Source: Antedon mediterranea (taxonomy: Eukaryota > Echinodermata > Crinoidea > Comatulida > Antedonidae). From it: 64,000 nucleotides of DNA. The notes under the pieces were generated by a model. The model was not told the DNA's origin. It saw only the letters and a program-made list of their open reading frames with translations, and ran no database searches. The stretch is from NCBI RefSeq assembly GCF_964355755.1, contig NC_092671.1:18564001-18628000 (forward strand). The letters run 5' to 3'. This document shows, piece by piece, positions 18,654 through 62,146 of this stretch (the first letter of the stretch is position 1; each line of letters begins with the position of its first letter). The position numbers and the translations under genes were made by a program.

Positions 18654-18659
18654 TTTATT
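18654..18659 (-). terminator. Candidate polyadenylation signal for uridine phosphorylase
   Basis: AATAAA on the minus strand, about 625 bp downstream of the stop codon. It is the nearest canonical hexamer I noticed, but AT-rich DNA produces this word often. Confidence 0.3.
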
Positions 18660-19282: not shown

Positions 19283-28654
<9,372 letters not shown>

Positions 28655-32373: not shown

Positions 32374-32704
32374 AATGGACATTACTTAAAGATGTATTGT
32401 CCCTTGAAACACAAGAAATGAAAAAAAAAATATTCTAAATTTAAATTGGCCATATCAAAGTAATATTCGAGCCAAAAACAACAAGTTTACGTAATACTAA
32501 CAGGTAAATTAATTTGATTACATTTCGTCTGGAAAATCGTCACGAGCGAAAGTAAACAAAGATTTCAAACCATTAGTATGCATTATGCATGATGCTAATT
32601 AGGATTGTTTACAACTCGTCGCGATTGAGAAGGTGTTTTCACACAGATCGCGAAGAAGTTTTATGATTATGCATACAGAGTTAGCCAAACAAGCGAGGTG
32701 CATT

Positions 32705-32717
32705 CCCAGCTAGCAAT
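32705..32717 (+). repeat. Left terminal inverted repeat of giant transposon
   Basis: CCCAGCTAGCAAT, 13 bp, exact complement of 52602-52614. Beyond it the two ends differ in sequence but both enter ACGTC-rich repeats at once. Confidence 0.9.
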
Positions 32718-33267
32718 TTGACATTGGCCCGACGTCGGCAAGCGTCGGCAGACGTCGACAAAGTCGCGGGCAAATTGCCGACGTTATTACAACGTTATTA
32801 CAACGTGTACTATAAGTCGTGAATTTAATGGTTGTTAACCTAACGTCCTGCCGACGTCGTATTTACGTTGAAAAATTGACAAAAAAATGTGCCTTGCGAT
32901 TACATAAATCCAACGTCAGTTTGACGTCGTTATCATTGGTTGGCACAACGTCTGCAAACGTCAACATATTAAAGTAATTTTGACACGTCACATCAACGTT
33001 GGCAAAACGTTGTAAAGAGTTGTCAACAATCAAACGTCGTCACAACGTTGACAATTTGCCAATATATGACAACTTATCAAGTCGGCAAATTATTGTTGGT
33101 TTAACGTCGCCATTAGTCGTTGGTTCACCGTTAGCGAATGTCGACACACTAAAGTCATTTTCCTCACGTTGCACCGACATCGGCTAATGGTTGTAAAATT
33201 TATGTAGGCATTTTAACGTCTACCCAACGTTTGAAATTGGATACAAGACTTTAAGCATTTGGGTTGT
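32718..33267 (+). repeat. Left subterminal ACGTC/ACGTTG-rich region
   Basis: Non-identical short repeats of ACGTC, GACGT and ACGTTG in both orientations, spaced about 10-30 bp, with no clean tandem unit. It joins the regular 183-bp array. Subterminal repeats of this sort are transposase-binding sites in CACTA elements; binding here is inferred. Confidence 0.7.
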
Positions 33268-36200
33268 TCATTTATGTCGATTCAACGTCAAATAAAAGTT
33301 GTTAAGCCAACGTCAGCAATTGTCAACAACATTACATTGACTTGTTCCACGTCATACAGACGTTGGCTTATAGTTGTATACGTTAAGTCGGATATCAAAC
33401 GTCGTGCCAACGCTTGAAATTGACGCAAAATACTATCATTTATGGTCACTATTCTAGCGTCAGTTTAACGTCAAATAAAAGTTGTTAAGCCAACGTCAGC
33501 AATTGTCAAAAATATTACATTGACTTGTTCCACGTCATGCAGACGTTGGCTAATAGTTGTATACGTTAAGTCTGATATCAAACGTCGTGCCAACGCTTGA
33601 AATTGACGCAAAATACTATCATTTATGGTCACTATTCTAGCGTCAGTTTAACGTCAAATAAAAGTTGTTAAGCCAACGTCAGCAATTGTCAAAAATATTA
33701 CATTGACTTGTTCCACGTCATACAGACGTTGGCTTATAGTTGTATACGTTAAGTCTGATATCAAACGTCATACCAACGCTTGAAATTGACGCAAAATACA
33801 ATCATTTATGGTCACTATTCTAGCGTCAGTTTAACGTCAAATAAAAGTTGTTAAGCCAACGTCAGCAATTGTCAACAACATTACATTGACTTGTTCCACG
33901 TCATGCAGACGTTGGCTAAACGTTGTATACGTTAAGTCTGATATCAAACGTCGTGCCAACGCTTGAAATTGACGCAAAATACTAGCATTTATGGTCACTA
34001 TTCTAGCGTCAGTTTAACGTCAAATAAAAGTTGTTAAGCCAACGTCAGCAATTGTCAACAACATTACATTGACTTGTTCCACGTCATACAGACGTTGGCT
34101 AATAGTTGTATACGTTAAGTCTGATATCAAACGTCGTGCCAACGCTTGAAATTGACGCAAAATACAATCATTTATGGTCACTATTCTAGCGTCAGTTTAA
34201 CGTCAAATAAAAGTTGTTAAGCCAACGTCAGCAATTGTCAACAACATTACATTGACTTGTTCCACGTCATGCAGACGTTGGCTAAAAGTTGTATACGTTA
34301 AGTCTGATATCAAACGTCGTGCCAACGCTTGAAATTGACGCAAAATACTAGCATTTATGGTCACTATTCTAGCGTCAGTTTAACGTCAAATAAAAGTTGT
34401 TAAGCCAACGTCAGCAATTGTCAACAACATTACATTGACTTGTTCCACGTCATACAGACGTTGGCTAATAGTTGTATACGTTAAGTCTGATATCAAACGT
34501 CGTGCCAACGCTTGAAATTGACGCAAAATACAATCATTTATGGTCACTATTCTAGCGTCAGTTTAACGTCAAATAAAAGTTGTTAAGCCAACGTCAGCCA
34601 TTGTCAACAACATTACATTGACTTGTTCCACGTCATGCAGACGTTGGCTAATAGTTGTATACGTTAAGTCTGATATCAAACGTCGTGCCAACGCTTGAAA
34701 TTGACGCAAAATACTAGCATTTATGGTCACTATTCTAGCGTCAGTTTAACGTCAAATAAAAGTTGTTAAGCCAACGTCAGCAATTGTCAAAAATATTACA
34801 TTGACTTGTTCCACGTCATGCAGACGTTGGCTAATAGTTGTATACGTTAAGTCTGATATCAAACGTCATACCAACGCTTGAAATTGACGCAAAATACAAT
34901 CATTTATGGTCACTATTCTAGCGTCAGTTTAACGTCAAATAAAAGTTGTTAAGCCAACGTCAGCAATTGTCAACAACATTACATTGACTTGGTCCACGTC
35001 ATACAGACGTTGGCTAATAGTTGTATACGTTAAGTCTGATATCAAACGTCGTGCCAACGCTTGAAATTGACGCAAAATACAATCATTTATGGTCACTATT
35101 CTAGCGTCAGTTTAACGTCAAATAAAAGTTGTTAAGCCAACGTCAGCAATTGTCAACAACATTACATTGACTTGTTCCACGTCATGCAGACGTTGGCTAA
35201 TAGTTGTATACGTTAAGTCTGATATCAAACGTCGTGCCAACGCTTGAAATTGACGCAAAATACTAGCATTTATGGTCACTATTCTAGCGTCAGTTTAACG
35301 TCAAATGAAAGTTGTTAAGCCAACGTCAGCAATTGTCAAAAATATTACATTGACTTGTTCCACGTCATGCAGACGTTGGCTAATAGTTGTATACGTTAAG
35401 TCTGATATCAAACGTCATACCAACGCTTGAAATTGACGCAAAATACAATCATTTATGGTCACTATTCTAGCGTCAGTTTAACGTCAAATAAAAGTTGTTA
35501 AGCCAACGTCAGCAATTGTCAACAACATTACATTGACTTGTTCCACGTCATACTGACGTTGGCTAATAGTTGTATACGTTAAGTCTGATATCAAACGTCG
35601 TGCCAACGCTTGAAATTGACGCAAAATACAATCATTTATGGTCACTATTCTAGCGTCAGTTTAACGTCAAATAAAAGTTGTTAAGCCAACGTCAGCAATT
35701 GTCAACAACATTACATTGACTTGTTCCACGTCATGCAGACGTTGGCTAATAGTTGTATACGTTAAGTCTGATATCAAACGTCGTGCCAACGCTTGAAATT
35801 GACGCAAAATACTAGCATTTATGGTCACTATTCTAGCGTCAGTTTAACGTCAAATGAAAGTTGTTAAGCCAACGTCAGCAATTGTCAAAAATATTACATT
35901 GACTTGTTCCACGTCATGCAGACGTTGGCTAATAGTTGTATACGTTAAGTCTGATATCAAACGTCATACCAACGCTTGAAATTGACGCAAAATACAATCA
36001 TTTATGGTCACTATTCTAGCGTCAGTTTAACGTCAAATAAAAGTTGTTAAGCCAACGTCAGCAATTGTCAACAACATTACATTGACTTGTTCCACGTCAT
36101 GCAGACGTTGGCTTATAGTTGTATACGTTAAGTCTGATATCAAACGTCGTGCCAACGCTTGAAATTGACGCAAAATACAATCATTTATGGTCACTATTCT

Positions 36201-36300
36201 AGCGTCAGTTTAACGTCAAATAAAAGTTTGTTAAGCCAACGTCAGCAATTGTCAACGACATTACATTGACTTGTTTCACATTGACTTTATAGTAACAATT
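33268..36300 (+). repeat. 183-bp satellite array, about 16.5 copies
   Basis: A 183-bp unit (landmark ATTCTAGCGTCAGTTTAACG) recurs with exactly 183-bp spacing: 33451, 33634, 33817, 34000 and so on to 36196, 16 landmarks in all. Each unit holds about ten ACGTC/GACGT/ACGTTG words. Variants alternate between units (CATACAGACG or CATGCAGACG; ACTAGCATT, ACAATCATT or ACTATCATT), and the rare CAAATGAAAG variant at 35304 and 35853 is spaced 549 bp, three units. That points to recent duplication of multi-unit blocks. No coding capacity. Confidence 0.95.
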
Positions 36301-37669
36301 GTATTACTGGTTAAGTCGGATTTTAAACGTCGTACCAACGCTTAGATATTACAAACATATCGTGTTTATTCCAAACTTGATAGAGTAACTGATTGACAAC
36401 TTACTAAATAATACAATACCCCACATAGAAAAGTTGATTCAAACAAAATGCAATATTATGTTTTGATATGGATATTAAAGAAAAGTAGGCATATATTCTT
36501 CTTTAGATTGTTTCTAAATATTTTTGAACATTAATTAGGACATCTAACTTTATATATTAAGAGAATGTCTGTACACTTATCGTTTGAATGCAGCTATTGA
36601 AATGGAATGATTGATTTAATGATGGTCATCCTAATTATGGTTCCATTTAAAATAAATGGCGCCCCCATTCAAGAAACTGAATGTAATCAAAGATCTTATA
36701 AAATTAATGAAAATACAAAATCTACAATTTACAAGGAACCAATTATTGGTATTAAAAGATAAATATTGAAATATGTACTTGGCTATTTTTCTAAACGGAA
36801 AAATGCAACCATACCACCATACATCATAAATGCAAAATAAAGAAAAACGATTAAGTTCATTCCACTGATAATACGTTTAATTGCATTTTCATTTCAACAG
36901 CCTAACATTAAATTTATTTAAAAACATTTGTCAAGATAGATATTGGGAATACACCTCCATTTTTTCGCAATATAAGAGAAGCTAATAACGAATTGACAAA
37001 TGGTCAAACAATAAACGGTCTCAGAAAACGATGTTATAACGTTCATGATCTGTAATGTTCGCTGATATTATAAAAACTAAAAAGTAGGCATAGGTTAAGT
37101 TTAATTCGTAGTAAGATATATGTGTGTATTATATTATATACTCCAAAGTAACTAAATTCTACAGAGGCTTCAAATTTAATTTATGTAAAAATAAAAATTG
37201 TACATGAATGTTAATGAACTATTTGGGCTTATAAACTTATGTTATGTTATGTTCTAAATTACCGAACGTAAAACAAAAAATGATGAGATACAAAAATGTG
37301 GATAAAGAAAGAAATAATGCGCAAGACATAAAATTAAAATAATACATTATTATGTAAGCAGTGTATAAATTGTTGAACAAAGTATTAATATAGTTCATAT
37401 GTTATATATTATTTGTCTTGTTAAATAAATTTGTAAGGCCCTATACTGTTATTCTTTAAGGAAAGTTGATATACCCTATTATTTTATGCCAATTAATAGT
37501 ATTAATATTGTTTAAGTAAATATTTTGTCTAATTGCCTTGATTTTGTGTATAGGCCAATGGCATCAAATTTGTCTCAAAGCAAATTAAAGACACTTTTAG
37601 ACACATGATTCATTGATTTCTGATATAATATTCTGTACTTGTGTATGCATTACTAAAATAGTTATATTA

Positions 37670-39120
37670 TGTTTCATTTATAATGTATGTAAACATTTAT
37701 TCATTTTTTTAAAACAAATCGGTGCACTTTTTCTGTTGTTTTTGTTTAATTAATTTTAATTAAAATTATGACAACAATTCCTATCTAACCTAGATTCACA
37801 CAAAAACAATTACTTCCTAATAAAATTGTATAATGGTATACATTACAGAGCATTGAATAAACTCGAGCGGAATATTAACGCACATAAAAAAACATTCATT
37901 TTCTTGTCGAAAAGTGCCCTCTCTAGTTTTCTATTGATTTAATAATTATTAATAATTAATTAATGGGTAATATTAAAATATTTTTAACTTTTAATGTTAG
38001 AAGTTGGTTCTACTCCTAACAAAGTTTCATATCTCCAAATTTCAACAAGGTAGACAAAGCACTTCAATAAATATCACATTTAACATCACAAATTAGGGTT
38101 ATGGATTGAATTTTTGCTAATAATTTTCGATAAAAAATACTTTTCGTATTTAAAAACATTTGATACTTGGTGTGAATATTCAATATAAGTTGCTCTATCC
38201 ATATTGCTAAAGAAAAATAAATATCAAACCATAATTCACTGATTGTTGTGATTTACGTTTTTACAAAATTTACACTTATGAACGACCATACAATTCCAAC
38301 TCATTTTTTCAACCTAATAACGATTTAAAAAAAAAAAACCAACAGAAAAGGGTTATGAAAGCAATTTTCTGTGAATAGAGCAACCTATATTGAACATATA
38401 AAACGAGTTTCAACTGTTTTTAAATACGAAAAGTATTTTTTATCGACGTTTTTTATATATGTTTTTAGGCAAAAATTCCTTCAATAACCCTAATTTGTGA
38501 TGTTAAATATGATATTTATTGAAGTAATTAGACAACGTTGTTGAAATTTGGAGATATGAAATTTTGTTAGGAGTAGATCCAACTTCCTACATTAAATGTT
38601 AAAAACATGTTAACCTTACCCATTAATTAATTATAAATAATTAATAAATCAATAGAAAACTAGAGAGGGCACTTTTCGATAAGAAAATGATTATGTTTTT
38701 TATGTACGTTATTATTCCGCTCGAGTTTATTCAACATACTGTATTGTATACTACAGTAATATACTATTTTATTGGAAAGTAAATATTTTTGTGTGAATCT
38801 TCTTGGAGTTCTTTGAAAGAGTATCCGCTTATACTTCTTTTCTTCAGATTCAACATCTGATTTAGGTCTTAAATGTGCACACACACTTCCTGAACCAACA
38901 TAGTACATTGAAAGTCAAATGAATTGTTTTAACTTTTTTTATTGAAAACAATCTGACTCAAAACATATTATCAGTGACAATAATAGAAAGGTTAGATAGG
39001 TTTGTTGTAATAATTTTTAATTAAAATTAATTAAACAAAAAACAACAGAAAAGTGCACTTTTTTGTTTTAAAAAATGTAAAAAAATGAATAAATATTTAC
39101 TTACATTATAAATGTAAACA
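37670..39120. repeat. Large inverted repeat, arms about 550-750 bp
   Basis: Left arm about 37670-38215, right arm about 38370-39120. Pairs include GTGCCCTCTCTAGTTTTCTA (37914) with TAGAAAACTAGAGAGGGCAC (38652), and TGCACTTTTTCTGTTGTTTT (37723) with the AAAACAACAGAAAAGTGCAC stretch (39040). The right arm carries an insertion of about 200 bp (roughly 38785-38985). The loop is about 150 bp. Mismatches are moderate, so it is not newly formed. Possibly a nested foldback element; no target duplication identified. Confidence 0.75.
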
Positions 39121-40453
39121 TTTCGATAAGAAAATGATTATGTTTTTTATGTACGGTATTATTCCGCCCGAGTTTATTCAACATACTGTATTATTATACT
39201 ATTTTATTGGGAATACATTAATTTACACATTCATAGAAATATATGGTTCATACTTTTTTAACATAAATATTTAGCCATTTACTTTGATCGATACATTTAT
39301 AATTTATACCGATAATAGTACACCTATTATTGTATAGCATTACCATGTTTTCACCCATATTAATAATTCTGCATTTTCAATTCAATAATCAATTTCATTT
39401 ATTTATTTCAACACACATTTAAATCGGTGATTGACAGCAAAATAAATAAACAACAGGCGCGTATCTTAATACATGTATACTATTTGTAAATATTATAAAC
39501 AAAAAACATATATATAGAAAATGAAATGAAGTACATTTAAACCATTTTGAGCATATTTTCACTTATTATTAGGCCTATGTCAAAAACCGAAATTGAAAAT
39601 GATAAAAAAAAAAGCTGAATGAAAAAATATTTAGGCCTACACATGTTGCGGGGATATATTAAAAAATGATTTCGTAATTGGTACTTCTCTTTAAAATGTA
39701 CTAATTTCACTATTTATTTTGTTTGGATTTTGAAATTATTAAATACGAATTATACTACTTTTATCCATATGTACTGTACGATATTTGTACTAAATCATTT
39801 CTCCAAATAAACATTGTGTTTAAAAACTTAAATTGCTCTCTGTTTGCGCTGTATGCAACATTACATATACGCATTGGCTCCGGTTGGGGAGGAGGGGGAA
39901 TTACCAACCTGACGTTTATTACAATATCGGAGCAACAGATACTGTAATGCGTAAGTTCAACAAAAGATGCGCGTAGGCCTACACAGTGTTTGTGCGAAAT
40001 GTGTGTTTCATTAAAAATGCGAGACCCGTGACGTGTTAAAACTCTGTGAGCTGATATTATAGTTTGACAATAGGGAATGGTGTGTGGGGTGCTACAGTCC
40101 GCAGTAAATTGGAGGGATACGTGGGACTATGGGCAGTAGCGAATTAAAAGTTCACACCATATTAATTCTAAAAATAATTGATGAGATGCTCTTTAGTTTT
40201 CGTTTTAGCTATTAATATATTTCATTCAGCAGAACATTTTATTTAAATTACATTCGTATACCCCTTCAGTTAAGATACATAAAAAGTGTGTGCGGGTGGC
40301 CGTTTCGAAAACGCGGATGTTAAGTTTTGATGGATGTAACTGAACATATTTGGAGGTGCGAAAAAGTCTCCACGACATTGGCCCATCATGTTTTTTACTT
40401 CATTTCCAAATAAACATATAGTGTTTTAAGGATGAATGATAAAATAATTTGAT

Positions 40454-40721
40454 TTTTTTTTTATTTGATTTGAGTATTTAAAAACTTTAATTACTCTCTG
40501 TTTTTGCATACGCTGTTTTTGATACTTTATTCACATGCCGATGTAAATGTCCTTCAATCCTGTCGGTTGTTTACGAAAACCGAATGCCAATGCTTATATC
40601 GTAAACAACCGACAGGATTGAAGGACATTCGCATCGGCATGTGAATAAAGTATCAAAAACAGCGTATGCAAAAACAGAGAGTAATTAAAGTTTTTAAATA
40701 CTCAAATCAAATAAAAAAAAA
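40454..40721. repeat. Near-perfect palindrome, 123-bp arms
   Basis: Arms 40454-40576 and 40599-40721 are almost exact complements, separated by 22 bp; the only clear mismatch is TA versus CG in GATGTAAATG / CATTCGCATC. The arm sequence also occurs once, diverged, at 41848-41925 (CTCTCTGTTTTTTACTTTAT, CACATGCCGATATGAATGTC), suggesting a local duplication and inversion. The near-identity of the arms suggests a recent origin or gene conversion between arms. Confidence 0.9.
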
Positions 40722-40884
40722 CTCCTACCAGCGTGCAAAAATGCATTACTGTAGGTATTCTTGGGAATGGGATATGTAACTAATTCCACGTGTAAATCGA
40801 GTCGACTTGACACGGATGCCCGGATGTACTCTCCTAAATGTTTTAAAAAAAAGCCAGAGACGATATATATATATATAAATCACT

Positions 40885-40925
40885 TGCACTGATGAAGGGC
40901 TAGTGTTGGCCGAAAGCTCTGCTAA
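40885..40925 (+). ncRNA. Hammerhead-like motif, probable Penelope-like tail relic
   Basis: ACTGATGAAGGGCTAGTGTT then GGCCGAAAGCTCTGCTAA contains the hammerhead core words CTGATGA and GAAA, a possible short helix between them and a 3-bp helix AGC-TCT-GCT after GAAA. Penelope-like elements are known to carry minimal hammerhead ribozymes with a very short helix III. I could not form helix I from the flanks, and helix II has a mismatch, so this is likely an inactive relic. Confidence 0.35.
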
Positions 40926-43579
40926 CTTTTCTGACTGTTTTACTTATCGTTTTGATTTAGCTTTCTCTTTTTTTTGTATCTCCATTGAGATCCAGCCACA
41001 GCATTGTCATTTTTTCAGTAATTTGCCTTTGGATTTATAAATCAATACATACTTTAATGTCCAATCATACTCAATTCATTCTATTGAATGTTTTAAGTAG
41101 AATTGGGCAATTGTAATAATTCATAATTATATTATTAGACCTATGTACAGAAAAATGAAAGAAATGTATCGGTTCAAATATATACAGCCCAAACAACACA
41201 TTTGAAATGTAACACAAACACACACACCCCAGACCCACTGTAGGTACAGAACATTCATTCTTAGCCGCCCGGTGATATAATTTAATTAACTAATTATTTT
41301 AAAACGATCATGTAATGAGGAAATCTGTGAGAATAAGAAAAATTTAGGAACCCTCGCTTGATATGCTGGTGCTTTCATAGTGTTTTTCAAATTCGACTGG
41401 GCATAATCAACAAACAAAAGCCCTAATGAGGTTTCGTAAAATAATACAGTGATATTTTATTTTACAAATACAATCAATTTTAGGATTTTCTTATACATAA
41501 TAGTTTGGTTCTTTATCAGTATTGGATAGTGTAATAAATGGTCATTAATATTATACATAGAAATTATTTATTTAATTATAAATAGAAAATTAGGCCATAT
41601 CAAATACCAGTGAACATCCGTTTAGCCCGTTTGAAATTCAATCAAACCTATTTGGTTAATAATAATTTAATGAGTTCAGAATGTATACCTTTTTATCCGC
41701 ATACGATATTTGACTATGTATTTATGTAAATTATTTGATATGTTTTCCAATAAACAATGTACTGATTTTTGTTTTAACACTTTGCAATGATGAATGATTA
41801 AAGGGTCTATTTTTTGTAATTGATTTGGATATTTGTAACTTTCCATAGCTCTCTGTTTTTTACTTTATTCACATGCCGATATGAATGTCCTGGAGTCCAA
41901 TCGGTCATTTACGAAAACAGAATACACTGTAATAAGCATGATTTGCATAGAATTCTCATAAAATCCTGTGTTTATATCTCAAAGGTCACTAAACAGTCCC
42001 AGAAGACAGATCATTCAAGGTTATGATATGAATGGTGAACTAGCAAATAGCTCAACATTTTGATTACAAAATGCTTAATTTAAACACAAAGGAGAATGTA
42101 CATAGGTATACAACTCCCTGGGTAGACATTCTGTGAACACCACTACTCGTAGATTTGAATGTATAGATAGATAAATAATATATAATGTGATGATCAATGA
42201 AGAATGATAATCTCATGTAAAATCGAAACCTTGCATTGAATTGACAATGATTTTTAATACAACAAATTCAATCAAGGTGCTTGATATAAATATTCTTTTA
42301 CATTTCACATTAACATTATACCGACGATAATGATGGTGTATAATTATATGTGACTTGGTGGAGACTCTTACCCCAACCCGGTTTATAAATTACAATTCCG
42401 TCTGCTGTATTGCTTATTGTTATTGGATATACTCTTGTTTTTAAACCGTAAATATTAAAAAAACGACGAACTCTTTCATGGTAAAGAAATAACCATCATC
42501 CATACAAAAAGATAGATCTCGCAGATTTTTCTTTGTTTAAAGGTTCATGTACAAAAATAAGGAAAAACTGGCATTTAGGGGTAATGTTGTATCAAAATAA
42601 TCTGATTTAAAGTGTACATTTGAACCATCTCAAGGATGTATGGTATGTGGATGTTGGTTGAGAATGAGAGGATGAGCTGAGGTGGGGTTGGTGGTTAGAT
42701 GGGGATTCAGAGATAATGAATCAAAATGAATTCTTCTGTGAAGGATTTAACCTGTGATTTCAATCATTGCAATCATGCATGGTCTCCATGAAGCAAATAA
42801 CTCCCACCCTGGGGCAGGTATTTGTATCTGCTACCTTCTAATAAATATAAGAAGTCTGACAGTTTAGCATACCAGATGATTTTAATGCATTTTTATTTTA
42901 TACTTTACTTTTAACTTTATTAAATTGTACAATCATTTTCATAAATCATAATAAATAAATAAGTCTATATGCAGACTTTTGTACTAGGTTCTCCCAACCA
43001 AAGGGCCAATAAATTTACCTGTCATGGACACTTGTTGTGTGCTATACCAATTAAGGGATTGTGACTTAAAGTAAGATGTCATCTTTTTTGTGGCACGCCT
43101 AATTGGCGACAGAAGCTGTGTTAGCCTCTTTTGTTGCTCCATGGCGCAAAATCTAGCTATTTTTTGTATTGTTATGTTTGTATAATTGTTTTTGCCGAAA
43201 TTAATAAAATAAAATATAATAATCTAAATTTCTTCTTAAAGATGATGAGTTATTTAAGTTTGATCAAAAACTAACTCATATATATCAAAGTTATGCGATG
43301 AGGTCATAATTGCTACACCCATTTTACAATCTTAGTTTGTGTACATTTTATCATCGAGTTGAACAACAACTAAAATACAACTGTATCACACATTCATCAA
43401 ACAATACTGTATAAGTAATAATAATCCCTTCTACATTGTAGTTGTGGGCCCTGTACTCTGCTAAAGTTACTTTAAATACACGTAATACATTTGACATATG
43501 CCTACAATCATGTACTGTACGTGTACTTGAACAAAGCATGTATTTGTGTTTATTCTGCATGTTGTCAACCCCGATATCT

Positions 43580-43772
43580 ACTCGCAGTTTCCGACTCGCA
43601 ACTCGCACTTTCCGACTCGCAACTCGCACTTTCCGACTAGCAACTCGCAGTTTCTGACCCGCAACTCGCACTTTCTGACTCACAATTCGCACTTTCCGAC
43701 CCGCAACTCGCACTTTCTGACTCGCAATTCGCACTTTCCGACTCGCAACTCACACTTTCCGACCCGCAACTC
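43580..43772. repeat. 21-bp minisatellite, about 9 copies
   Basis: Units of the form GACTCGCAACTCGCACTTTCC with single-base variants (CCGAC/CTGAC, CTCGC/TTCGC, CAC/CAG). Because 21 is a multiple of three it stays open in several frames on both strands, which explains the repetitive Arg/Val/Lys-rich and Ser/Phe/Thr-rich open frames here. They are not genes. Confidence 0.9.
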
Positions 43773-44675
43773 CTAATAGGAGTTATCGCGGGAAAAACGA
43801 ATACTGTAAGCCTATACTACAATGAATCATAATTTATCTGGACTCAAGAAAATTTGATTCTATTTTGTATCTATACATACTGCTCTTATTCCGTTCTCTC
43901 ATTCGGCTAGGATTTTTGTCAAACAGTTCGTTTAATCTTTAATCATCAGGGTCTATGTGTACTTGATGTAATACTTTTTTGTATGGAATCTCTGCCTCGA
44001 CCAAATGATGCTTTTTGTTTTTGTTTTTATTTTTATTATTATATTTTTGTTTATTAAATATACATATGTTGATGTTTGATTTTGGTAGAAATAAATGTTG
44101 AATTGAATGTTTGCGATATACTATGATATGACCGGATGCATATCTGATGCATATACAGTATATACACTTTTAGTACTGAGTGCCTATATTATTTGTACGT
44201 GTCATCTAGTTGATGAGCCTAGTACAGTATAATAATATATAGAATACAAATCCAACATTCTTCAAAATTCTATGATGTGGGTAACATGGGTACCTTACTG
44301 TCAAACTACTTTACATTGCATTCGTTTATCATGAACGGATTGTGATTGACTTTCCAGTCCGCGAATGTCCTTGCCTGTTGGAATTTGATTTACAAGCGTG
44401 ATTGATTTTGACGGTAGCTTACCATTGAAAAGACCAAAAAACATTCTAGCACACGCTGTCGTCCCTGTATCACGCTCAGAACTTGCTGCTCAAAAACTTT
44501 TTGTCATCGAAACTGTAGGCCTACTGAAATTTTATTTAAAAGTTCCTGATTGACCTTTTCTGTTTCATCAATTGTTCGACTTCTTCAAATACAGTGAGTA
44601 ATAATAGAACATTTGTATTATATTAATTTGAACAACATTTTACAATTATTAAAACAGTACTGTATTACTGTAACT

Positions 44676-47000
44676 ATGAATGTAAATAGTAAAATTTACT
44701 GTAAAAGAACTCTCCGCAATAGAGCCAAAAGAAGGGCTAATGAGATTGTAGGGCAAATTGGTAGGCCTAGGCCTAATGTGAATTTTGATACGGATAATGT
44801 AATTAGGCCTATTAATCCACGTTATTATAATGATGAACACGTTGACGACGGAAGTGTCAATATTACTCCGTCTCTACCTCCTTCTGATAATAGCCAAACT
44901 GACAATGTCACTACTAGTACTACTAGTCATGATGACCAGAGTGTTAGTAGTCTTAATAAAGCAAGTAGTAGTAGTGTTACTTCCAGTTGTAGCCTAACTA
45001 AAAATAGTCCCAAACGTTGTAGTAATATCAGCAGAATTGAAATTAGTAGCAGCAGTAGTAGCAGCAGTAGTATAAATGATATTGATCGTAGTAATAGTAG
45101 TACTAGTTCTACTATTATTAATACTACCACTACTACCAGTGGTGGGGGTAGTAGTAATTTTAGCCTATCTCATCCTCCTTATTTTTCAAGTAGTCCGGGC
45201 AATACTTCCTCTAGTTCTCTGTCCGATGATGAGGAAGACAACATTAATCCTTCAACTACGATAAGAAATGAACTCTGTAGATGGGCTATTGAGAGCCAAA
45301 CACCATCATGTCATGTTACTTCACTTCTTAATATTCTTAAAACTTGTGTACCAAATCTTCCAAAAGATGCACGAACATTAAAACATACCCTTACTTCATA
45401 CCGACTAGAGGACATTGCAGGAGGGACATACCATCATTTCGGAATTGCCAAAAATGTAATTTCTATTCTTTCTGTCGATGACAAGTTTTGTGGTATCACT
45501 AGTTTACGTCTACAAATCTTCGTTGATGGTTTACCACTTTTTAAAAGTAGTAATGTCCAATTTTGGCCAATACTTGGCCGACTGGAATTGTATGAAAGTA
45601 CTGGCCCCTTCATAATTGGGTTGTATGTTGGAACTTCTAAGCCAACAGATGCAAATGCATACCTAGATGAATTCGTTAGGGAAATGTTGAAAATTGAAAC
45701 TGAAGGGATTACTGTACATGACACAACATTTAATGTTACGATTTTAAACGTAATTTGTGACACCCCTGCCAGGTCATTTGTAAAGTGTACAAAAGCTCAC
45801 AATGGTTACTATGGCTGTGATAAATGTGTCCAAAGTGGTGAGTATAAAAATCACAGAATGACATTTCCTGAAATGAATGCGGAAATTAGAACTGATGACA
45901 TGTTCGATAAAAAGGTAACTGAGGATCATCACCATAAAGAAAGCTGCCTTCAAAAAATCAAAATAGGTATGGTTTCACAGTTCCCGTTAGATTATATGCA
46001 CTTGGTTTGTTTAGGTATAATGAAACGACTTTTACATACTTGGATGAAAGGTCCCTTGCAAACTAGATTAGGAAGGCGCATAGTTGATAATATATCTGAT
46101 TCAATTGTCTCATTTATTCCATATATGCCACGCGAATTAGCTCGAAAGGGCCGTTCGCTGTCAGAGGTGGATAGATGGAAAGCTACAGAGTTTCGAACTT
46201 TTCTTCTGTATTCTTCATTGATATCATTAAAGGATAATTTGTCTCAGGATATGTACTATCATTTTTTATTGTTCCATGTAGGAATAAGAATATTATGTAG
46301 TCCTTCAATGTGCATGAAGTACTGTAGCTATGCAGAACAAATTATTCGCTCTTTCGTACAACATTGCAAAGTGTTGTATGGGTCAGATATGCTGATATAT
46401 AATGTTCACGCTTTAATCCACTTAGCAAATGATGTAAGAAAATTTGGGCCATTGGATAATTTTTCATCATTCCCATATGAAAACTATCTTAAAAAAATTA
46501 AGAGAATGATAAAGAAACCACAGTTTCCTATTCAGCAAGTAATTCGCAGATTATCAGAGGAAGCAGAAATTAATAGGCCATTTCCAACGCAAAAACAGGT
46601 AAACCCATTTAAAAAGCAACATTTTTCAGGTCCTCTTCCACTTAATTTCCCCAGATGTTTACAATTCACAGAAATACACACTCAAGATGAGTACACGCTA
46701 TCAATCAAACAAGGTGATAATACCATTCTTGTTGGTGACGACTATTTTCAGGTCAAAAATATCCTTGTTGTTGATTCAGTTCCAACATTACTATGTGTAA
46801 AATTTAGAGAGCCGTCATCTTTTTTTCAATATCCTTTAGATTCACGGAAATTAAACATAGCATATGTTAAACGTTTAAAGCGCCACTTTTACCAGTTTTC
46901 AATTTCAGATATAAGAGCCAAGATCATATTACTACCGTACAAGGCTGGCTTTGTAACTGTTCCATTAATCCACACAGAACATAGAAATTTAGGATTATGA
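44676..47000 (+). CDS. Transposase of the giant element (CMC/CACTA-like), 774 aa
   Basis: Cut-and-paste transposase expected to bind the ACGTC-rich ends and catalyse excision and insertion in the nucleus. The start is the ATG at 44676; the frame is open from about 44613 but has no earlier ATG. Residues about 15-40 are basic (RTLRNRAKRRANE). Residues about 60-190 are a low-complexity Ser/Thr/Asn linker coded by AGT/ACT runs. The catalytic region follows: IFVDGLPLFKSS with likely first Asp 284, FWPILG, VICDTPARSF with likely second Asp 362, a zinc-type CDKC (381-384), and LDYMHLVCLGIMKRLL (438-453). This set matches animal proteins annotated as transposases related to CACTA Tnp2/CMC families. 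The third acidic residue I cannot place with confidence. The frame is fully intact in a single exon. Confidence 0.85.
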   Translation: MNVNSKIYCKRTLRNRAKRRANEIVGQIGRPRPNVNFDTDNVIRPINPRYYNDEHVDDGSVNITPSLPPSDNSQTDNVTTSTTSHDDQSVSSLNKASSSSVTSSCSLTKNSPKRCSNISRIEISSSSSSSSSINDIDRSNSSTSSTIINTTTTTSGGGSSNFSLSHPPYFSSSPGNTSSSSLSDDEEDNINPSTTIRNELCRWAIESQTPSCHVTSLLNILKTCVPNLPKDARTLKHTLTSYRLEDIAGGTYHHFGIAKNVISILSVDDKFCGITSLRLQIFVDGLPLFKSSNVQFWPILGRLELYESTGPFIIGLYVGTSKPTDANAYLDEFVREMLKIETEGITVHDTTFNVTILNVICDTPARSFVKCTKAHNGYYGCDKCVQSGEYKNHRMTFPEMNAEIRTDDMFDKKVTEDHHHKESCLQKIKIGMVSQFPLDYMHLVCLGIMKRLLHTWMKGPLQTRLGRRIVDNISDSIVSFIPYMPRELARKGRSLSEVDRWKATEFRTFLLYSSLISLKDNLSQDMYYHFLLFHVGIRILCSPSMCMKYCSYAEQIIRSFVQHCKVLYGSDMLIYNVHALIHLANDVRKFGPLDNFSSFPYENYLKKIKRMIKKPQFPIQQVIRRLSEEAEINRPFPTQKQVNPFKKQHFSGPLPLNFPRCLQFTEIHTQDEYTLSIKQGDNTILVGDDYFQVKNILVVDSVPTLLCVKFREPSSFFQYPLDSRKLNIAYVKRLKRHFYQFSISDIRAKIILLPYKAGFVTVPLIHTEHRNLGL

Positions 47001-48699
47001 TCATGATTTTCATTATGAATTTGAGTCTCGGTTGGTAGGTCTACATTATTTTAAGGTGGACCTCTAAATAAATATGTTCGCATCTTGATGTATTTTTTAA
47101 TGCAAACAGGATGTTAATATTTCTTTGAACTAAACTAAAAATGCATAATAAAGGCATTCTACTCCAAATTTGTAAATTCATTGTAAGTGTTCATTTTTTA
47201 CTTAGTTTTCATTTTATATTTCATTTTATTACTCGATATAATTGTTGTTCACCTCTTGTGAGATAATTCTATTGTATGAATTTGTTCTACGTATTCAATT
47301 AGCAATATATTACTAATTTTCACAGAACATGGTGTTAAATTTGTATACATAATACAGAGAGGTTATTTAAACATTATGGAGAGTTCTTTTCATGGTATAG
47401 GCTATTATTTATCTTCATAGTTATTGTGTCTAAAAAAAACAACTAAATTAGTCAAACATTATTGCTAATACTGTATGTGTGACAGAACTTATGAATTGCT
47501 CTTTGTGGATTTGATGAATGCAGATGTATGCAGTAGTTGTTTTTAACAATTCAGAAGAAGTGGAAGCCGTCCCACTTTCTTGGGTTAGTGCAAGAAAAGA
47601 TAAATGCTGGTGGCCTAATTACCGGTCCATCCAGAAAGTAAAACGTGCAATAGAAATACAGGAGAAACCAACAGAACTGTGGCAGGAGTTTGAAATACGG
47701 GTCCTAGAAGAGACAGGTATATTTTAATGTTCTTATTAGGCCCATACTTAAAATATTGGTAAAGTGTTTAAATCGGATCAGTACTGGTCACCATAATTAG
47801 ACGAAAATAATCATCATATTAGTAATTAGTATAGTAATTGGTAGTATATGTCTTCTTTTGTATAGCTACATATGAGAGGGCAAGGCAAAAACTGAAGAAA
47901 GCTACAGAAACGTCAGACTTAGAAACCACAGACAGTGAGGTTGAAATGCCCAGAAAGAGAAGGTATAAGACTAAGTACTTCATATTACGAACTATTGTAC
48001 CCTTTCAGCAGCATTTTTCATTATTTGAAGGTTTTGATTGTTCATGTTATGTTAGATCTTATAATCAGCACGTCGTAACATCAGTACGAGCTTTTCCTTT
48101 AGTTAAATCAATTCATGTTTAGTTTGTGGATGAACTTCTGTTAATACTGTATGTAATGTTTTCTATGGATATTAAGGCCGAAATAAAGTTAAATGATTTA
48201 CAGTAATGAATGAATAAGCACATCAGCATGCAAGGTCCATAACAATTTGAGATCCCATACTTAATGTTTATGATACAGTATTTCTAATTATTTAATTCAT
48301 TTATATATTTGTTTAGTTTACCTGCCAGATTTTTTGAAAGCGATAAAGCTACAAGAACAAGCACGCCAGCCAAACAAAACTTGGGCCTACCTCCCGGCTT
48401 ACCTGCTCTTCCTAATTTTGAGCCTGAAAATGACAGCATTTCTACCACCCCACCACTCGATGAAAGCATGGATTCGTACGGTATGTTATGTTTCTAGTAC
48501 AGGGGAGGAGGGAATAGACAAATAGGCATATAGATACTGATAGATACAATAATAGGATCAAGGTTATATTGCACGTTATAATGTTACGTTTCATTTCTTT
48601 TTATAGCAAGTACGTCTTCACTTGAAACAAAAAGTAATGGTAAGAAATATTCAATTTTTCATCTATAATATTTCCATTTTCTCTCAATATGACACACTT

Positions 48700-48904
48700 A
48701 GCTGTGGCTTGGTGGTTATGATGCTTGTCTACCAATCTAAGGGTCCTGGGTTCAAGCCCTGTCATATGTCAGGGTTTTTTTCTCATGACAATTTACAACT
48801 CCACTCCCAAAGACTTAATAATAAGTTCTTGTTTATGTAGAGCATCTTGTGTATATGTTTGTGCAATTTGCCTAAAATCAGAATAAATTAAAAAAAAATT
48901 AAAT
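48700..48904 (+). repeat. tRNA-derived SINE, full length
   Basis: The A box TGGCTTGGTGG (48705-48715) and B box GGTTCAAGCCC (48749-48759) lie at tRNA-like spacing, followed by a non-tRNA body and an A-rich tail (ATAAATTAAAAAAAAATTAA). It sits in an intron of the companion gene, so it entered after the giant element acquired that gene. A truncated reverse copy is at about 27140-27240. Confidence 0.8.
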
Positions 48905-49439
48905 ATAACGGAGGGAGACTTTTAGAATACTGTATAACTACAGCAAGCAAGTCATTATAGTGTTCATAGACGTAACTGTTGGGTTTTTGTTTTTGTCTGT
49001 TTCAATGTAACATTACTAATTATTACAACATTTGTTTAAACATAAATAATTTAAGTATTAAGAACGTTATTTCATATCAATAGATCATGAGATGTTTACG
49101 CTACTTGAAGAAATAAAGGGCCAGGTGCGGCAAAATTCCTTGTAGTTACAAGCAATTTTAAAAAGAGGTACCATGTCGGAGGAAGCCAGTGACACTAATG
49201 ATGTTTTTGATTTGCCGGCGGCTTCAATGGATGACATCCAGAATATTGAAGAAAGCCTTAAAGAAAAGGCAAATCAAAAGGCCCTAGTAGGTTTAATATT
49301 TTACTTAAAATAATAATAACAACGTTCTCAATTAATTAATCATTCTGCTTTACATAGGATGTATTCAAATATTTCAATTAATGTTAAACCAAATTGATTA
49401 ATGTATTGTTTGAAGGTTTGCATGGCGAAATCAAATTTG

Positions 49440-49570
49440 CGTTTTGTGCTTTGATCATCCTCATGAGTGAGAATGGGCCTCCTGAGGAAGATTAAAGCAC
49501 ATTGATCGAAACGTCGAGAAACTCAACAGTTCTTTTCAGAACTAATTTACGTGGTGTGCCGCAAACTTTA
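49440..49570 (+). repeat. Penelope-like element tail fragment
   Basis: CTCCTGAGGAAGATTAAAGC, then TTGATCGAAACGTCGAG, then the short palindrome AGTTCTTTTCAGAACT. CTGAGGA..CGAAACGTC is the pattern of minimal hammerhead motifs described in Penelope-like elements. A matching reverse copy is at 28733-28850. It lies in an intron of the companion gene. Confidence 0.5.
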
Positions 49571-51619
49571 ATCAACAATATTAACTAATGTTTTTCATCT
49601 ACGTTATGTTGAAAATGTCTTGTTTTAACAATTTCTTTATTTTTATATTTTAGATTTTGCGATTATGCAGTCTTGGTGGCCACAATGAAACAGATGTCCT
49701 CAATAGGATAATGGGTCATCTGCTTTTCAAACACACTTGCCTCAGAATTTAATTGGATGGGAAGAGGGGATAAGAAGGGATTCAGAGGACTAAAGCTTTC
49801 AAAAATTGTAAAAGGTAAATACTCTAATAAACAGCACCCGCCATTCCAAGATATACACTGGTCCCAACATTGCTTCGGTGATTTGACGAGAACTGGTGTT
49901 TCAAAGTGTGTATATGAATTACCGTCTGACTGATTTTGGACGGAGATGCACACATAAAATTGGATGTCTCTTCCTCGTTTTCAAAATAATATTTTAAAAA
50001 TCTTATTTAGTATTATTAAAATAATTATTTCAAATGCATAATTGCTTGTTTTATCTTGCTAATAGGGAAGCAAGAGGCTTTTGATTATATATTTTTCACA
50101 TGAGATAAAGTATTCTGTTGATGCACAATGTTTGTACACTTTGCAGTTTCAGCTAGAAGATCATGGACCGGAATGACGGAGGCCACATGTGAAAATAAAA
50201 TAAAATCTTGGCTGAAATACAGCAAGGACAGAGCTGGGGGAAGAAAACTTAGGGAACAAAAGAAGAAAGGTCAGTTCAATAGTTAAATTTAGTATTTAAA
50301 GATGTTTGTACTTTACTTGTAAATCAGGTATCAAGTCATTTTAAACCACCATCATGACGGCAACAACAATAATCCATGCTAGTGGTTATTTATTACGACT
50401 ACTAATTTTCAAACTAGAATTTAATTCGTCTCTTTAACGAATTATAAGTGATGTCATTTTATAATTTTACTGACATTTATTTTAAAACAAATCATGCACT
50501 TACGTTAAAATACCATCGCAAAATGTTGATACTGTATAATTATGGCATCTTTTGACCTGATGCATTTACGCTTATAGTGCTGAGTTATAATTATCTACAG
50601 CATATGTAGGCCTACATCTATATACAATGTAGCATAGGTGAAATTACGGGACCCACATTATGTTCTATTTTTTTTGGTATGATGGCGTTATCAAAGTAAA
50701 CATGAAGATGATGAATTGAGCAAAAAGATAAAAGATTTGGAATAAAATTAATTGGGCACGTAAAAGGGCGGCGGTGCGCGCTTTTTGAAATTTGTACAAC
50801 TTTTACTAAAAACTAACATTGTGTTAAATAAATTGCAATGCGATAAGCTTTCTACTATAGCTTATGGTTTGTAATCACTATGTGTGTATTTAGTAAACGT
50901 ATATAATTTACAGTTAATTGACAATAACTTGCTTTTCTTTTCTCTTTGTAGCAGCTGCAGCAGCAGCAAACACCGACGAAGCCGAAGATACCATAGATGA
51001 TGATGATGAACTTTTTATTTGAATTGTTGGTTATCCGTATACTGGATGCTTTTACGGCATCATATTGCCAGTAGATTTTGTAAAATAGGATTTGTTTTTT
51101 CTTTGGTACTATTATTCATATTTAAAAGAGCGCATCTCGCTTATCGATACCCCATTTCTCCCAGCTTTAAATATTTTCTTATTCAATAAATCATTCCTCG
51201 CATGAGTAGTAAACTTTTTAATTTTGATGACCTCATTATGTCTCAACATTTGAACAACATGGGTTAATTAATTTAATCTATATAGTAAATTGTAATCTAT
51301 AGCCCCTCAGGATGAAAAGTGGCCCTCATGATTAAATGTGTGCTCAAATTAACTTCCGAATTGATGAAATGTTAAAAACTTGATTAAAATGTAATCAAAC
51401 GTTGCAATTAATTATACATTTTTACATTCTTAAGAGACGAGTTCAAATCTATATAGTTTATTTGATTTTTAATTGTCTAGTTTTTAAATGTTTTACTTAA
51501 ATTGTTTATCATTAAATAAGTATACCTTTAATAAAAACAATTTCCAATCCAATATTTGCAGAGTACCGGCATTATTTAATTGTTAAGTTTCATTCATATT
51601 CATTCGATGGTACAATCTA

Positions 51620-52601
51620 TTTACTACGGTGAATCGATGTAAATTAACACAGCTACTCCAACACGTTGTGCTCACGCATAACCGACGAATACAAAATACG
51701 ATGACCGACGTAATCTATGACTTTAAGCCGACGTTGACCCAACACATTGGGCGAACTAATGCCCAACGAAGAACAATTACGTTAAACCAACGTCATCAAA
51801 AGTTGTTAGACCAATGTAATATAAATGACGTTAAGCCGACATCAACCCAACACGTTGAGCCAACCTAGACACGACAAATAAAAAAATACGTTGAACCAAC
51901 GTCATCAAAAGTTATTAGACCAACGTAATGTATATGACGTTAAGCCGACGTCAACCAAACACATGTCGGGCCAACATCGTTAAAAGATGTTAAGCCAACC
52001 ATAAATGACGACGTTGCCCGAACACGTTGTTGCAATGTCTGTCCAACGCGTTGGGCCCACTAAGGGCCGATGTAAAAAATAACGTTGGGCCTACGTCGGT
52101 AAAAGTAACGTCGGGCCTACGTCGGTAAAAGTTGTTAAGCCAACCATAAATAACGACGTTTGTCCGACGTCGCCCCAACACGTTGTTCCGATGTCTGTCC
52201 AACGCGTTGGGCCCACTAAGGGCCGACGGAAAATATTACGTCGGGCCTATGTCGCGGTATAAGATGTCGAGCCAACCATAAACGACGACGTTTGGCCGAC
52301 GTCGCCCCAACACGTTGTTCCAATGTCTGTTCAACGCGTTGGGCCCACTAAGGGCCGATGGAAAAAATTACGTCGGGCCTACGTTGGTAACAGTAACGTC
52401 GGGCCTACGTCGGTAAAAGATGTCAAGCCAACCATAAACGACGACGTTTGCCCGACGTCGCCCCAACACGTTGTTCCGATGTCTGTACAACGCGTTGGGC
52501 CCACTAAGGGCCGATGGAAAAAATTACGTCGGGCCTACGTCGCCTAAAGTTGTTGGCCCAACGTAACTGTTGACCTTACGCCAACGTCGGTACAACGTGT
52601 G
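51620..52601 (+). repeat. Right subterminal ACGTC-rich array
   Basis: The landmark GCGTTGGGCCCACTAAGGGC recurs with spacings of 156, 132 and 156 bp (TTGGG at 52051, 52207, 52339, 52495). The 24-bp length difference comes from duplication of an ACGTCGGGCCTACGTCGGTA block. Further out (51620-52000) the units are more diverged. The unit is unrelated in detail to the left 183-bp unit but uses the same ACGTC/ACGTTG words. Confidence 0.85.
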
Positions 52602-52614
52602 ATTGCTAGCTGGG
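52602..52614 (-). repeat. Right terminal inverted repeat of giant transposon
   Basis: ATTGCTAGCTGGG, the exact complement of 32705-32717, followed by TT then the continuation of the host MITE. Confidence 0.9.
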
Positions 52615-53072
52615 TTATTATATGTTTTGATCGAAAACTTTGATTTTCGGTTATATTATTTTTTTTCGACTAATTTTTGGTGAAAGTTAATAACTATGAT
52701 ACTTCAAAATCACCCACTTTTTTTCGAAATATTAAAAAAAAATTGTTGTTGAATTAGTCAAAGCTAAGGGACAATGTCTAGCGCCCTAGGATCAAACAAT
52801 TTTTCAAGACTTCTTCAACTTCAGAACACTGGAAATGCATGTCAATCAAAATCTAGATAATGGATGGAAACCTTAAAAACAATGTTCAATGTTTGTCATC
52901 TGATCGTCTTTAGGCCTATCTAACAACGAAGGATAGTCACCCGGTAGGTTGACTTGGATTTTAAAGGGTCTACACTCGACTCCAATCTATGACTTGACGT
53001 ACATTAGGCCTAATATACTTTTTATGAAAAAATAAACTTTATAAAAGGATTGTCTATGTTTTTACTTTATAG

Positions 53073-59106: not shown

Positions 59107-62100
59107 ATGGTGAAGGAAACGGGTTATTATGATTTACTTGGTGTTAAGCCAGAGGCAACCGAGAATGAACTGAAAAAAGCATATAGAAAACTTGCATTGA
59201 AATATCATCCAGACAGAAATCCTGAAGATCCTGAAAAAGTGAGTTTGTAAGAAATTGTTTAGATTAAGAGCCCGTTTATACTACAGACGATAACCGGAGA
59301 CGATAAATATATTCACAAATCCAATTTCAAAAATATTATTTGAATCAAAAGATGGTACTGTATACGATTATTCTACAGTATAGTTCTAAAGTTTAAGATG
59401 AAACTTTCTTTTGTTTTCTGTAGAAATATAATAATATATAATAATACCAGATTTATATAGCGCCCTTTTCATGAGTAATCATGCTCAAAGGCGCTTTACA
59501 AGCATTATTACCCCAGTATTTTTTGGGATCAAACACGTATGGAAACATACTCCCATAATGCAGCCGGTAACCAGCGCAGTTGTGTCTAGATCTAACTGGG
59601 TACCCATTTATACACCTGGGTGGAGAGAGGCAAACGTAAGTAAAGTATCTTGCCTACGGATACAAGCAATGCGGCGAGAGTTGGATTCGAACCTAGGTCT
59701 GACGATCGGTAGTCCAACGTCCAACACACTGCGCCACACGAAATAATATTACAGTAGTATTTGTTGTTATTGTCCTTATACAGTACAGTTGGTACTGAAC
59801 TAAAGAACTAGAAACCGGACACTGATTAGCAACATTTTAATTCAACTTCTTTCTACAGTAATTTTTGAAATGGTTCATTTTACAGTTTAAACAGATATCC
59901 CAAGCATATGAAGTTTTATCAGATTCCAAGAAGCGCGATCTTTATGACCGAGGTGGTGATCAAGCTATCAAAGAAGGGGGCACAGGGGAGGGGCATTTCT
60001 CTTCACCTATGGATATATTTGACATGTTTTTCGGTGGTGGTGGTGGAGGAGGTGGAGGGCGACGTGAACGTAAGGGCAAGGATGTTATTCATCAACTCAG
60101 TGTTACGCTTGAGGAAATGTACAATGCTTCGGTTAGGAAATTAGCTCTACAAAAAAATGTTGTGTGTGAGAAGTGTGAAGGTAATTTTTTTAATTATTTG
60201 AATTTGAAACAACTAAAAAATTACAAATATATACATAATCCACAATGAATGCCATGAGTTCATAAAGATACAAGTATAAAACTTTTCATAAAGAAACAAT
60301 TGGTTTGTACAGTGCATAAATTCAGTCACTTCAAAGCATCTTACAATGTATACAACAATTGACTTGAAAATATACAAAAGTGTGTTGCAATTATATTTGT
60401 ACTGTACTGGTTGTATATTTCTAAAATTGAAACTAATTATATAAAAATATTTATGTTTTATAAAACAGGTAAGGGTGGTAAAAAAGGTGCAGTGGAGAAG
60501 TGCCCAATATGTCGAGGAACTGGAGTTCAGGTACAAATACATCAGTTAGGTCCTGGCATGGTTCAACAGATTCAATCTGTTTGTCGTAGCTGTGAAGGAC
60601 AGGGAGAACGAATAAATGAAAAGGATCGTTGTAAAACATGTAGTGGCAAGAAAATTGTAAGAGAACGGAAGATTTTAGAGGTGCATGTAGATAAAGGTAA
60701 CAAAACCAGCTCTTGTGTAATTAACTAGAAAAGATACCCACCCCAAACAGGGTGCTTGCTTTCCCCCAAACGTAGTTTAAAACATTCCCATTACAATAAC
60801 ATTCATTTTGATACTTTGTGTGTATAAATGCATACAATAGCAAACAAATGTATAACCAACAATCAAAGTAGGTTATTTAGATGCCAGCTATGTTGGCAGA
60901 TAAAGTGTCATATAACCAGTCCACTGCAGTTTAAAGTAAATTTTGTACCTCATGTGTATGTATATGCGTCTAGTAGGAACAATTTGTATTTAACATAGCC
61001 GTACAAACTGTCTACAATATAGATGAGTGGTGGTTACGATACCCAGACACTTTGAGAACTCCTTTACAATGAGATGGATATACTGATAGTACTTTGCCTT
61101 TATATACAAAGGTAGAGGTTAAAAGTATGATTGGTTTGTCTTTGTATAAAGGTATGAAGGATGGACAGAAGATTTTCTTTAGGGGAGAGGGAGACCAAGA
61201 GCCCGGTTTAGAACCAGGTGACATCATTATTATAATTGACGAAAAGGAACATCCGATTTATAAAAGACAAGGAAATGATCTTCTAATTAAAATGGAAATT
61301 AAATTAGTCGAAGCTCTTTGTGGTTTCCAGAAAGTATTGAAGACTTTGGACAACAGGGAGCTGCTCATTATCTCACATGCAGGTATGTTTATTGTTTCTA
61401 TGACAACCTTGTGTTGTAAGCAAAGATGTTATAATTAACTAAAAAGTAAATTGCAATGCAATCCGAGCTGAAAGAGGCAAGTTACCATGAAGAGGAACCA
61501 CACGGTATGGCTGCATGAGCCAATCAAATACACCAGTTTAAAATCATGCCTCTACTAAAATATTATATAACCTCTTTTGTTGTTAGACCAATGGTCACAT
61601 ATTGCTTGGCATAGCTTTTTTGTATAGAAAGCTCCACCCAAAAGCCAAGCCCTCGCCCAACCTACGCACTATTTTAAAATGTTATAACAATTAGTTAGAC
61701 ACTAGATTTTAAACTGTCAAATTTGTATGTGTACCAGTACCTGTAAGTTTGTACCCTGTTTTTTTTTGGATCATGAAATGACAACAATAAGTATAATCTT
61801 GTTGCTTTTTATTTTCTTCATTGAAGGTGATGTAGTGAAACATGATGAGCTGAAGTGTATCCTAAATGAAGGAATGCCGTTTTATAAAAACCCATATGAG
61901 AAAGGTCGTTTAATCATCAGATTTAACGTTATCTTCCCAAGTGACGGATTTGTGCCGTTAGATAAACTAAAAGAGTTAGAAAGTCTTCTTCCAGAACGTG
62001 AAGAACCTATTCCAGATGAGAACGCTGAAGAAGTTGATTTAGTCTCATTTGACCCTTCAACATACCGTCAAAAAGCAAGCCACAATCACGCATATAATGA

Positions 62101-62146
62101 GGATGATGACATGGGCGGTAGACGAGTCCAATGTCAAAGTCATTGA
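59107..62146 (+). CDS. DNAJA1: DnaJ homologue subfamily A member 1 (Hsp40), five coding exons, 401 aa
   Basis: Type I J-protein that delivers unfolded clients to Hsc70/Hsp70 and stimulates its ATPase; cytosolic and membrane-associated through a prenylated tail. Coding exons 59107-59238, 59886-60180, 60469-60696, 61152-61382, 61827-62146; all GT-AG, 1,206 nt with stop. J domain 1-70 with HPD at 34-36; Gly/Phe linker with [12 protein letters not shown] and a run of nine glycines; four zinc motifs CEKC (138-141), CPIC (154-157), CRSC (181-184), CKTC (197-200); substrate-binding C-terminal domains with [15 protein letters not shown]-terminal VQCQSH, a CaaX-like farnesylation site at Cys398 (CQTS in vertebrate DNAJA1). 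It matches DNAJA1 closer than DNAJA2 over its whole length. The start ATG follows AAATCAAA, with [12 protein letters not shown] as expected. Confidence 0.97.
59440..59760 (-). repeat. tRNA-derived SINE in the first coding intron of DNAJA1
   Basis: On the minus strand the head GTGTGGCGCAGTGTGTTGGA contains an A box and AGGTTCGAATCCAACTC a near-perfect B box. The body (AAGGCGCTTTACAAGCATTA, CTGGGTACCCATTTATACAC on the plus strand) and TAATAATA end are typical of widespread marine-animal SINEs. The open frame across it is not a gene. Confidence 0.75.

Follow-up and report, generated by a model that had tools for sequence, protein, structure and literature searches.

A young family of large CACTA-like transposons with CCC ends and a putative DUF4806-type second gene in the crinoid Antedon mediterranea

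The window analysed here is a stretch of 64,000 nucleotides of DNA from Antedon mediterranea (NC_092671.1, positions 18,564,001 to 18,628,000), and it contains a transposon of 19,910 bp with a transposase gene, a putative second gene matching DUF4806 (a domain of unknown function), and ACGT-rich sequence beside both ends. An earlier note, made from the letters of the window alone, had taken positions 32705-52614 for one CACTA-like element with mapped ends, and these coordinates proved right to the base when empty sites and nine copies in the genome were compared. We assign the element, with a probability of roughly 0.93, to a young family of CACTA/CMC cut-and-paste transposons of the TRC (Transposon Related to CACTA) type, characterized by CCC ends and a 2-bp duplication of the target. 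The features of the locus are listed below.

32703..32704, no strand: left target site duplication TT; five of the six paralogous empty sites read have TT only once
32705..52614, + strand: complete transposon, 19,910 bp; genome contig C2:18596705-18616614; nine copies in the genome
32705..32717, + strand: left terminal inverted repeat, 13 bp, CCCAGCTAGCAAT
32718..33283, no strand: ACGT-rich subterminal region on the left, outside the array; ACGTC occurs 17 times in the outermost 580 bp, at most 6 times in shuffles
33284..36279, no strand: 183-bp tandem array; 16.4 copies, 96% match; 10-17 unit markers across the nine copies
37386..39054, no strand: nested palindromic repeat, in all nine copies; 73-88% to many genomic places among the matches listed
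43580..43772, no strand: 21-bp satellite piece, common to arrays elsewhere in the genome; in all nine copies
44676..47000, + strand: transposase gene, single exon, 774 amino acids, uninterrupted in the window copy; D284, D362, C381/C384, H578/H582, E602
47518..47716, + strand: second gene, inferred exon 1
47866..47962, + strand: second gene, inferred exon 2
48317..48480, + strand: second gene, inferred exon 3
48607..48639, + strand: second gene, inferred exon 4
49084..49286, + strand: second gene, inferred exon 5; in-frame stop in the window copy
49654..49814, + strand: second gene, inferred exon 6, DUF4806; frame shift in the window copy
50147..50269, + strand: second gene, inferred exon 7
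50952..51022, + strand: second gene, inferred exon 8 with stop codon
51705..52601, no strand: right ACGT-rich subterminal region, with 132/156/288-bp repeats
52602..52614, - strand: right terminal inverted repeat, 13 bp, reverse complement of CCCAGCTAGCAAT
52615..52616, no strand: right target site duplication TT, read next to the right end

As the earlier note had described, the two ends form an exact inverted repeat that stops after 13 bases, and TT stands on both flanks. A genome-wide search for the termini, suggested in the same note, recovered nine copies with the same ends and 2-bp duplications. The exact 13-mer has 24 matches in the 354-Mb genome (reversed control, 0), and 18 of these form nine convergent pairs with a spacing of 13.6-21.7 kb. 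The 2-bp flanks are identical in every pair (TT, AA, AT, TA, CA, TC, TT, AC and TA), in no pair does the identity reach 3 bp, and the nine insertion sites have no flanking sequence in common. Six matches are unpaired. The one at C1:11197888 belongs to an old relative of the right end (78%), and 24 ACGT fall within its inner 487 bp. The remaining five, three of which are copies of one other repeat, hold 0-2 ACGT in that interval, where three full copies have 19-20, and seem to be matches by chance.

The window copy sits inside a repeat, and paralogous empty sites could therefore be read. When the 150-bp window flanks were joined with one TT, the match ran across the junction at 82-89% in all 40 places scored (from 1,493 candidates). 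Six empty sites were read, of which five retain GCATT followed by AT, with a single TT, and the sixth is gapped at that point. In addition, the C5 copy lies within a 61-bp tandem repeat that continues in register once one CA is removed. From the empty sites and the register at C5 it is clear that the two ends bound one inserted unit and that the duplication is 2 bp long. The earlier note had also considered that ends of different elements might have been joined by chance; this is ruled out by the nine pairs with duplicated flanks and by the empty sites.

Aligned to the window copy, the eight sister copies match it piecewise at 98.4-99.8% identity. Over the 7.5 kb of common interior, the seven sister copies that align in one piece show 12-25 mismatches to the window copy, and the C1 copy, whose alignment falls into two pieces, shows 18 over about 7.0 kb, so that divergence from the window copy amounts to 0.16-0.33% of bases. 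This low divergence, together with the intact duplications in all nine copies, indicates that the family spread recently.

The copies differ chiefly in the number of 183-bp units and in internal deletions around the transposase, and through such deletions seven of the nine have lost most or all of the transposase gene. An N-terminal part is kept in C11, C5, C1 and C3, and no transposase match was found in the C4, C7 and C9 copies. C4 and C9 have one deletion in common (element positions 11988-17103), although they occupy different sites with different duplications (TA and AC). The simplest reading of the same deletion at different sites is that a deletion derivative moved by means of another copy's transposase, and we consider it most likely that a defective copy was mobilized in this manner; gene conversion between copies is a possible alternative origin of the common deletion. 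The C7 copy also contains an extra insertion of 5.4 kb (element positions 14625-20003) with frames of 655 and 218 amino acids on the opposite strand and with similar inverted ends, GCTCGGGCTCA and TGAGCCTGAGC, which is probably another DNA transposon.

The earlier note's claim of a transposase and a second gene inside the element is borne out by a 774-amino-acid frame with CMC residues and by an inferred eight-exon DUF4806 gene. The transposase frame extends over 44598-47000, with the ATG at 44676. In an alignment of three lineages of this genome (the window family and two others described below), D284, D362, CDKC at 381-384, HALIH at 578-582 and E602 are invariant. All three thus have the D-D-E triad with C(2)C and H(3)H between the second D and the E, which are the residues of the CMC/CMCT clade. 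The Pfam domain DUF4218 was matched in all three lineages (best E value 1.6e-5) and Transposase_21 (PF02992, tnp2) in two of them (best 1.4e-5). With the motif definitions of PMC1636069, the animal box A ([LVI]-D-x-[LM]-H-x3-L-G) occurs in all three lineages, reading LDYMHLVCLG in the window protein; TRC motif I (D-G ... W-P) is exact in the window protein and present in two of the three lineages, and the CXXC motif appears as CDKC in all three. No relatives were found in viral contigs.

Downstream of the transposase gene, a sequence-based exon model predicts a second gene of eight exons (47518-51022) with GT-AG introns and consistent phases. The peptide translated from its second half, for which sister copies were used in part, gives a DUF4806 match above the cut-off (E 1.3e-7). 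DUF4806 is reportedly a subtype of the BEN DNA-binding domain. By this model the gene is interrupted twice in the window copy, by an in-frame stop in exon 5 and by a frame shift in exon 6. C6 has neither of these lesions and a stop in exon 3, and in C7 exon 1 is partial and 8 bp are lost from exon 5, while exons 1-4 are gone from the remaining six copies. A profile of the second gene compared with solved structures gave chance-level matches only. The best of these, to lactate oxidase (E 0.054), was rejected as a structural relative.

The transposases of the two other lineages in this genome are 33% and 31% identical to the window transposase over the alignment. The first of the two belongs to a second TRC family of 15.5 kb, with two copies that are 99.6% alike (C4:23784644 to 23800143, and C8, about 7974279 to 7989782), ends CCCAGCTAACA, and duplications TA and AA. 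The other is a third TRC lineage, at C9:13299581-13301227, in which the transposase frame is uninterrupted over 713 codons and DUF4806-type exons are present. Its right end lies near C9:13292449 on the reverse strand (CCCAGCAAACAATA), and its left end was not found in 26.5 kb. Exons resembling the second gene follow the transposase gene in the same orientation in the 15.5-kb family (E 0.088 and 8.3e-4) and in the third lineage (E 2.1e-4 to 0.005), and the order from transposase to DUF4806-type exons is accordingly the same in three lineages of this genome. Both ends of the 15.5-kb relative, and the right end of the third lineage, are ACGT-rich.

ACGTC-rich subterminal arrays on both sides, as claimed in the earlier note, were found at densities of 29.3 per kb in the left end, 27.4 in the array and 29.1 in the right end, versus 0.7 in the interior. 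The observed counts (17, 82 and 28) exceed the maxima of 30 dinucleotide shuffles (6, 14 and 8). ACGTC and ACGTT crowd into the outer parts of the element, 3.6 kb at the left side and about 0.9 kb at the right, and the interior lies near the shuffle mean.

The size that the earlier note had singled out as unusual, 19.9 kb, is real and is made up in part of array and passenger DNA. The 183-bp array accounts for about 3 kb. The palindromic repeat at 37386-39054 is about 1.7 kb long, with arms of up to 252 nucleotides that are 87% complementary. Since this repeat and the satellite piece at 43580-43772 both recur at many other places in the genome and are present in all nine copies, they are passenger DNA, located in the left interior, that was acquired before the family spread. 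Elsewhere in the genome, relatives of the 21-bp satellite form arrays on opposite strands, in many cases spaced by about 5 kb (C11:2464096 and C11:2469177 are one example), and look like subterminal arrays belonging to a different transposon family.

Several results weigh against the explanation favoured here, a TRC-type element with a DUF4806 partner. The window transposase has no match to Transposase_21, a feature of TRC elements, and matches DUF4218 only at E 0.0022, below the Pfam cut-off. A single-sequence structure model of it has a mean predicted local distance difference test score (pLDDT) of 35 and is unusable for judging an RNase H fold. A profile of the transposases compared with solved structures returned chance-level matches, with no transposase or RAG1 relative among them. 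Apart from the window copy, the transposase frame reaches its end only in C6, where codon 727 is a stop. The second gene is, by the exon model, unbroken in none of the nine copies, and no self-sufficient copy with both genes unbroken was therefore seen. Possibly all the copies seen are now dependent; alternatively, the assembly may lack a working copy, or the exon model may be wrong in part. Finally, DUF4806 falls below the cut-off in the two related lineages (E 0.0055 and 0.037), and a whole-genome Pfam search for DUF4806 was empty, as it was for the control genomes, and is hence uninformative.

The assignment to TRC rests on the ends, the duplication and the transposase motifs. The CCC end is present in all nine copies and the classical CAC end is absent; likewise, a 2-bp duplication was found in all nine, and the 3-bp duplication of classical CACTA elements in none. 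The earlier note had concluded from the CCC end that the lineage might be undescribed. This conclusion fails, because the combination of CCC ends and 2-bp duplications was put forward in 2006 as the mark of an animal CACTA branch, TRC (PMC1636069), and is known from Hydra as well (PMC4298943). The element is thus a new, young and large family of an already known kind, the animal TRC branch, and not a new lineage by its ends.

Among the published elements, SmTRC1 of Schistosoma mansoni has 2-bp repeats in 7 of 14 copies, the Aedes TRC has CCCAGTCAAC and a length of 9.2 kb, and the Tribolium TRC measures about 5.2 kb (PMC1636069). All three resemble the window element in CCC ends, 2-bp duplication, CXXC, box A and motif I, and SmTRC1 also in its tandem repeat region and in a second protein that was proposed to be TNPA-like. 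The two insect elements differ in being about 5.2 and 9.2 kb long, against 19.9 kb here, and the second proteins of SmTRC1 are reported to have no detectable relatives in other TRCs, in contrast to the DUF4806-type gene found in three lineages here. The Hydra element Spongebob_HMa / EnSpm-4N1_HM likewise has CCCAGCCAACATTGAC ends and a 2-bp duplication and is assigned to TRC by its authors (PMC4298943). It differs in its length of 5.8 kb, its more than 50 full-length copies, and a transposase that its authors found unreadable owing to stops or frame shifts. More widely, the CMCT clade (EnSpm, Mirage, Chapaev, Transib/RAG1, Plavaka, ESTA and Lanisha) resembles the window element in its C(2)C and H(3-4)H residues, placed between the second D and the E of the D-D-E triad, and in duplications of 2-5 bp; it differs in that most of its members have CA..TG ends (PMC12730594).

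The transposase, being of the CACTA/CMC kind, would also fit a canonical CACTA/EnSpm element the ends of which had merely drifted from CAC to CCC. We regard such drift as very improbable, since the second family has CCCAGCTA ends with 2-bp duplications, the third lineage has CCCAGCAAACA at its right end, the published animal relatives also combine CCC with 2 bp (PMC1636069, PMC4298943), and plant CACTA elements generate 3 bp (PMC4158355). A new lineage of the CMC group apart from TRC, suggested by the size and by the DUF4806 gene, is unlikely, if less so. The TRC or TRC-assigned elements for which a size was seen measure 5.2-9.2 kb, SmTRC1 not being among them, and the papers found to mention DUF4806 give no tie to TRC. 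On the other hand, the ends, the duplication length, box A, motif I and CXXC agree with TRC, and the size is swollen by the 3-kb array and the nested repeats.

Within a TRC-type element, the role of the second gene can be considered by analogy with maize. Maize En/Spm and plant CACTA elements resemble the window element in having a tnp2-type transposase, a second DNA-binding protein (TNPA) and subterminal repeats; they differ in their CACTA ends and 3-bp duplication. TNPA of maize Spm is required for transposition and acts on methylated promoters, and a TNPA-like role was proposed in 2006 for SmTRC-PrA, for which no conserved relative was found by its authors (PMC1636069). The TNPA-role protein of animal TRC elements was thus left without a conserved candidate at that time. 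We propose that the second gene encodes a partner which, like TNPA in maize Spm, would bind the ACGT-rich subterminal repeats. In its full form, to which we give somewhat less than even odds, the DUF4806 (BEN-type) gene would be the conserved second factor that animal TRC transposons have seemed to lack, reading the ACGT-core, CpG-bearing subterminal arrays, drawing the ends together, and possibly countering or using CpG methylation in the manner of TNPA. If so, the scattered animal DUF4806 genes would largely be TRC genes or their descendants.

The gene could instead be a captured host passenger without a role in transposition, an explanation that we find doubtful, if quite conceivable. Ordinary genes annotated in zebrafish, Hydra, a beetle and Anopheles contain DUF4806, and a passenger would accord with the absence of any unbroken copy in the exon model. 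The deletion copies do not tell which gene is needed, because parts of both genes are gone from them. The same gene order and strand in three lineages, with the other transposases only 33% and 31% identical to that of the window, argue against a passenger. The recurrence of a DUF4806-type gene beside TRC transposases may be new: no literature tying DUF4806 to TRC elements was found among open papers, a negative that, with subscription papers and Repbase outside its scope, speaks only weakly for a true absence.

The ends, the 2-bp duplications, the empty sites, the nine near-identical copies, the internal deletions and the CMC-type residues are the observed part of the explanation that we favour, a TRC-type element with a DUF4806 partner. 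To judge from its relatives, the transposase would bind the 13-bp ends and cut the element out by double-strand excision. The element would then be joined at staggered cuts 2 bp apart, with catalysis presumably by D284, D362 and E602 as in the family, and repair would produce the duplication; deletion copies would be mobilized by transposase supplied from another copy. More tentatively, the DUF4806 protein may, like TNPA of maize Spm, bind the many ACGT-core sites beside each end, help to pair the ends, and perhaps exert control over the promoter. Owing to its recent spread, with low divergence and intact duplications throughout, the family is a useful animal counterpart of maize Spm. With three lineages having a DUF4806-type gene at the corresponding position, the TNPA question becomes open to a direct binding and excision test, and a domain of unknown function gains a concrete hypothesis.

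Two further features lie elsewhere in the window. Outside the transposon, at 13441-13885, there is a 40-bp tandem repeat of 11 copies with 97% match, and downstream of the insertion, at 59862-62146, some frames look, on visual inspection, like exons of a gene for a DnaJ-type chaperone.

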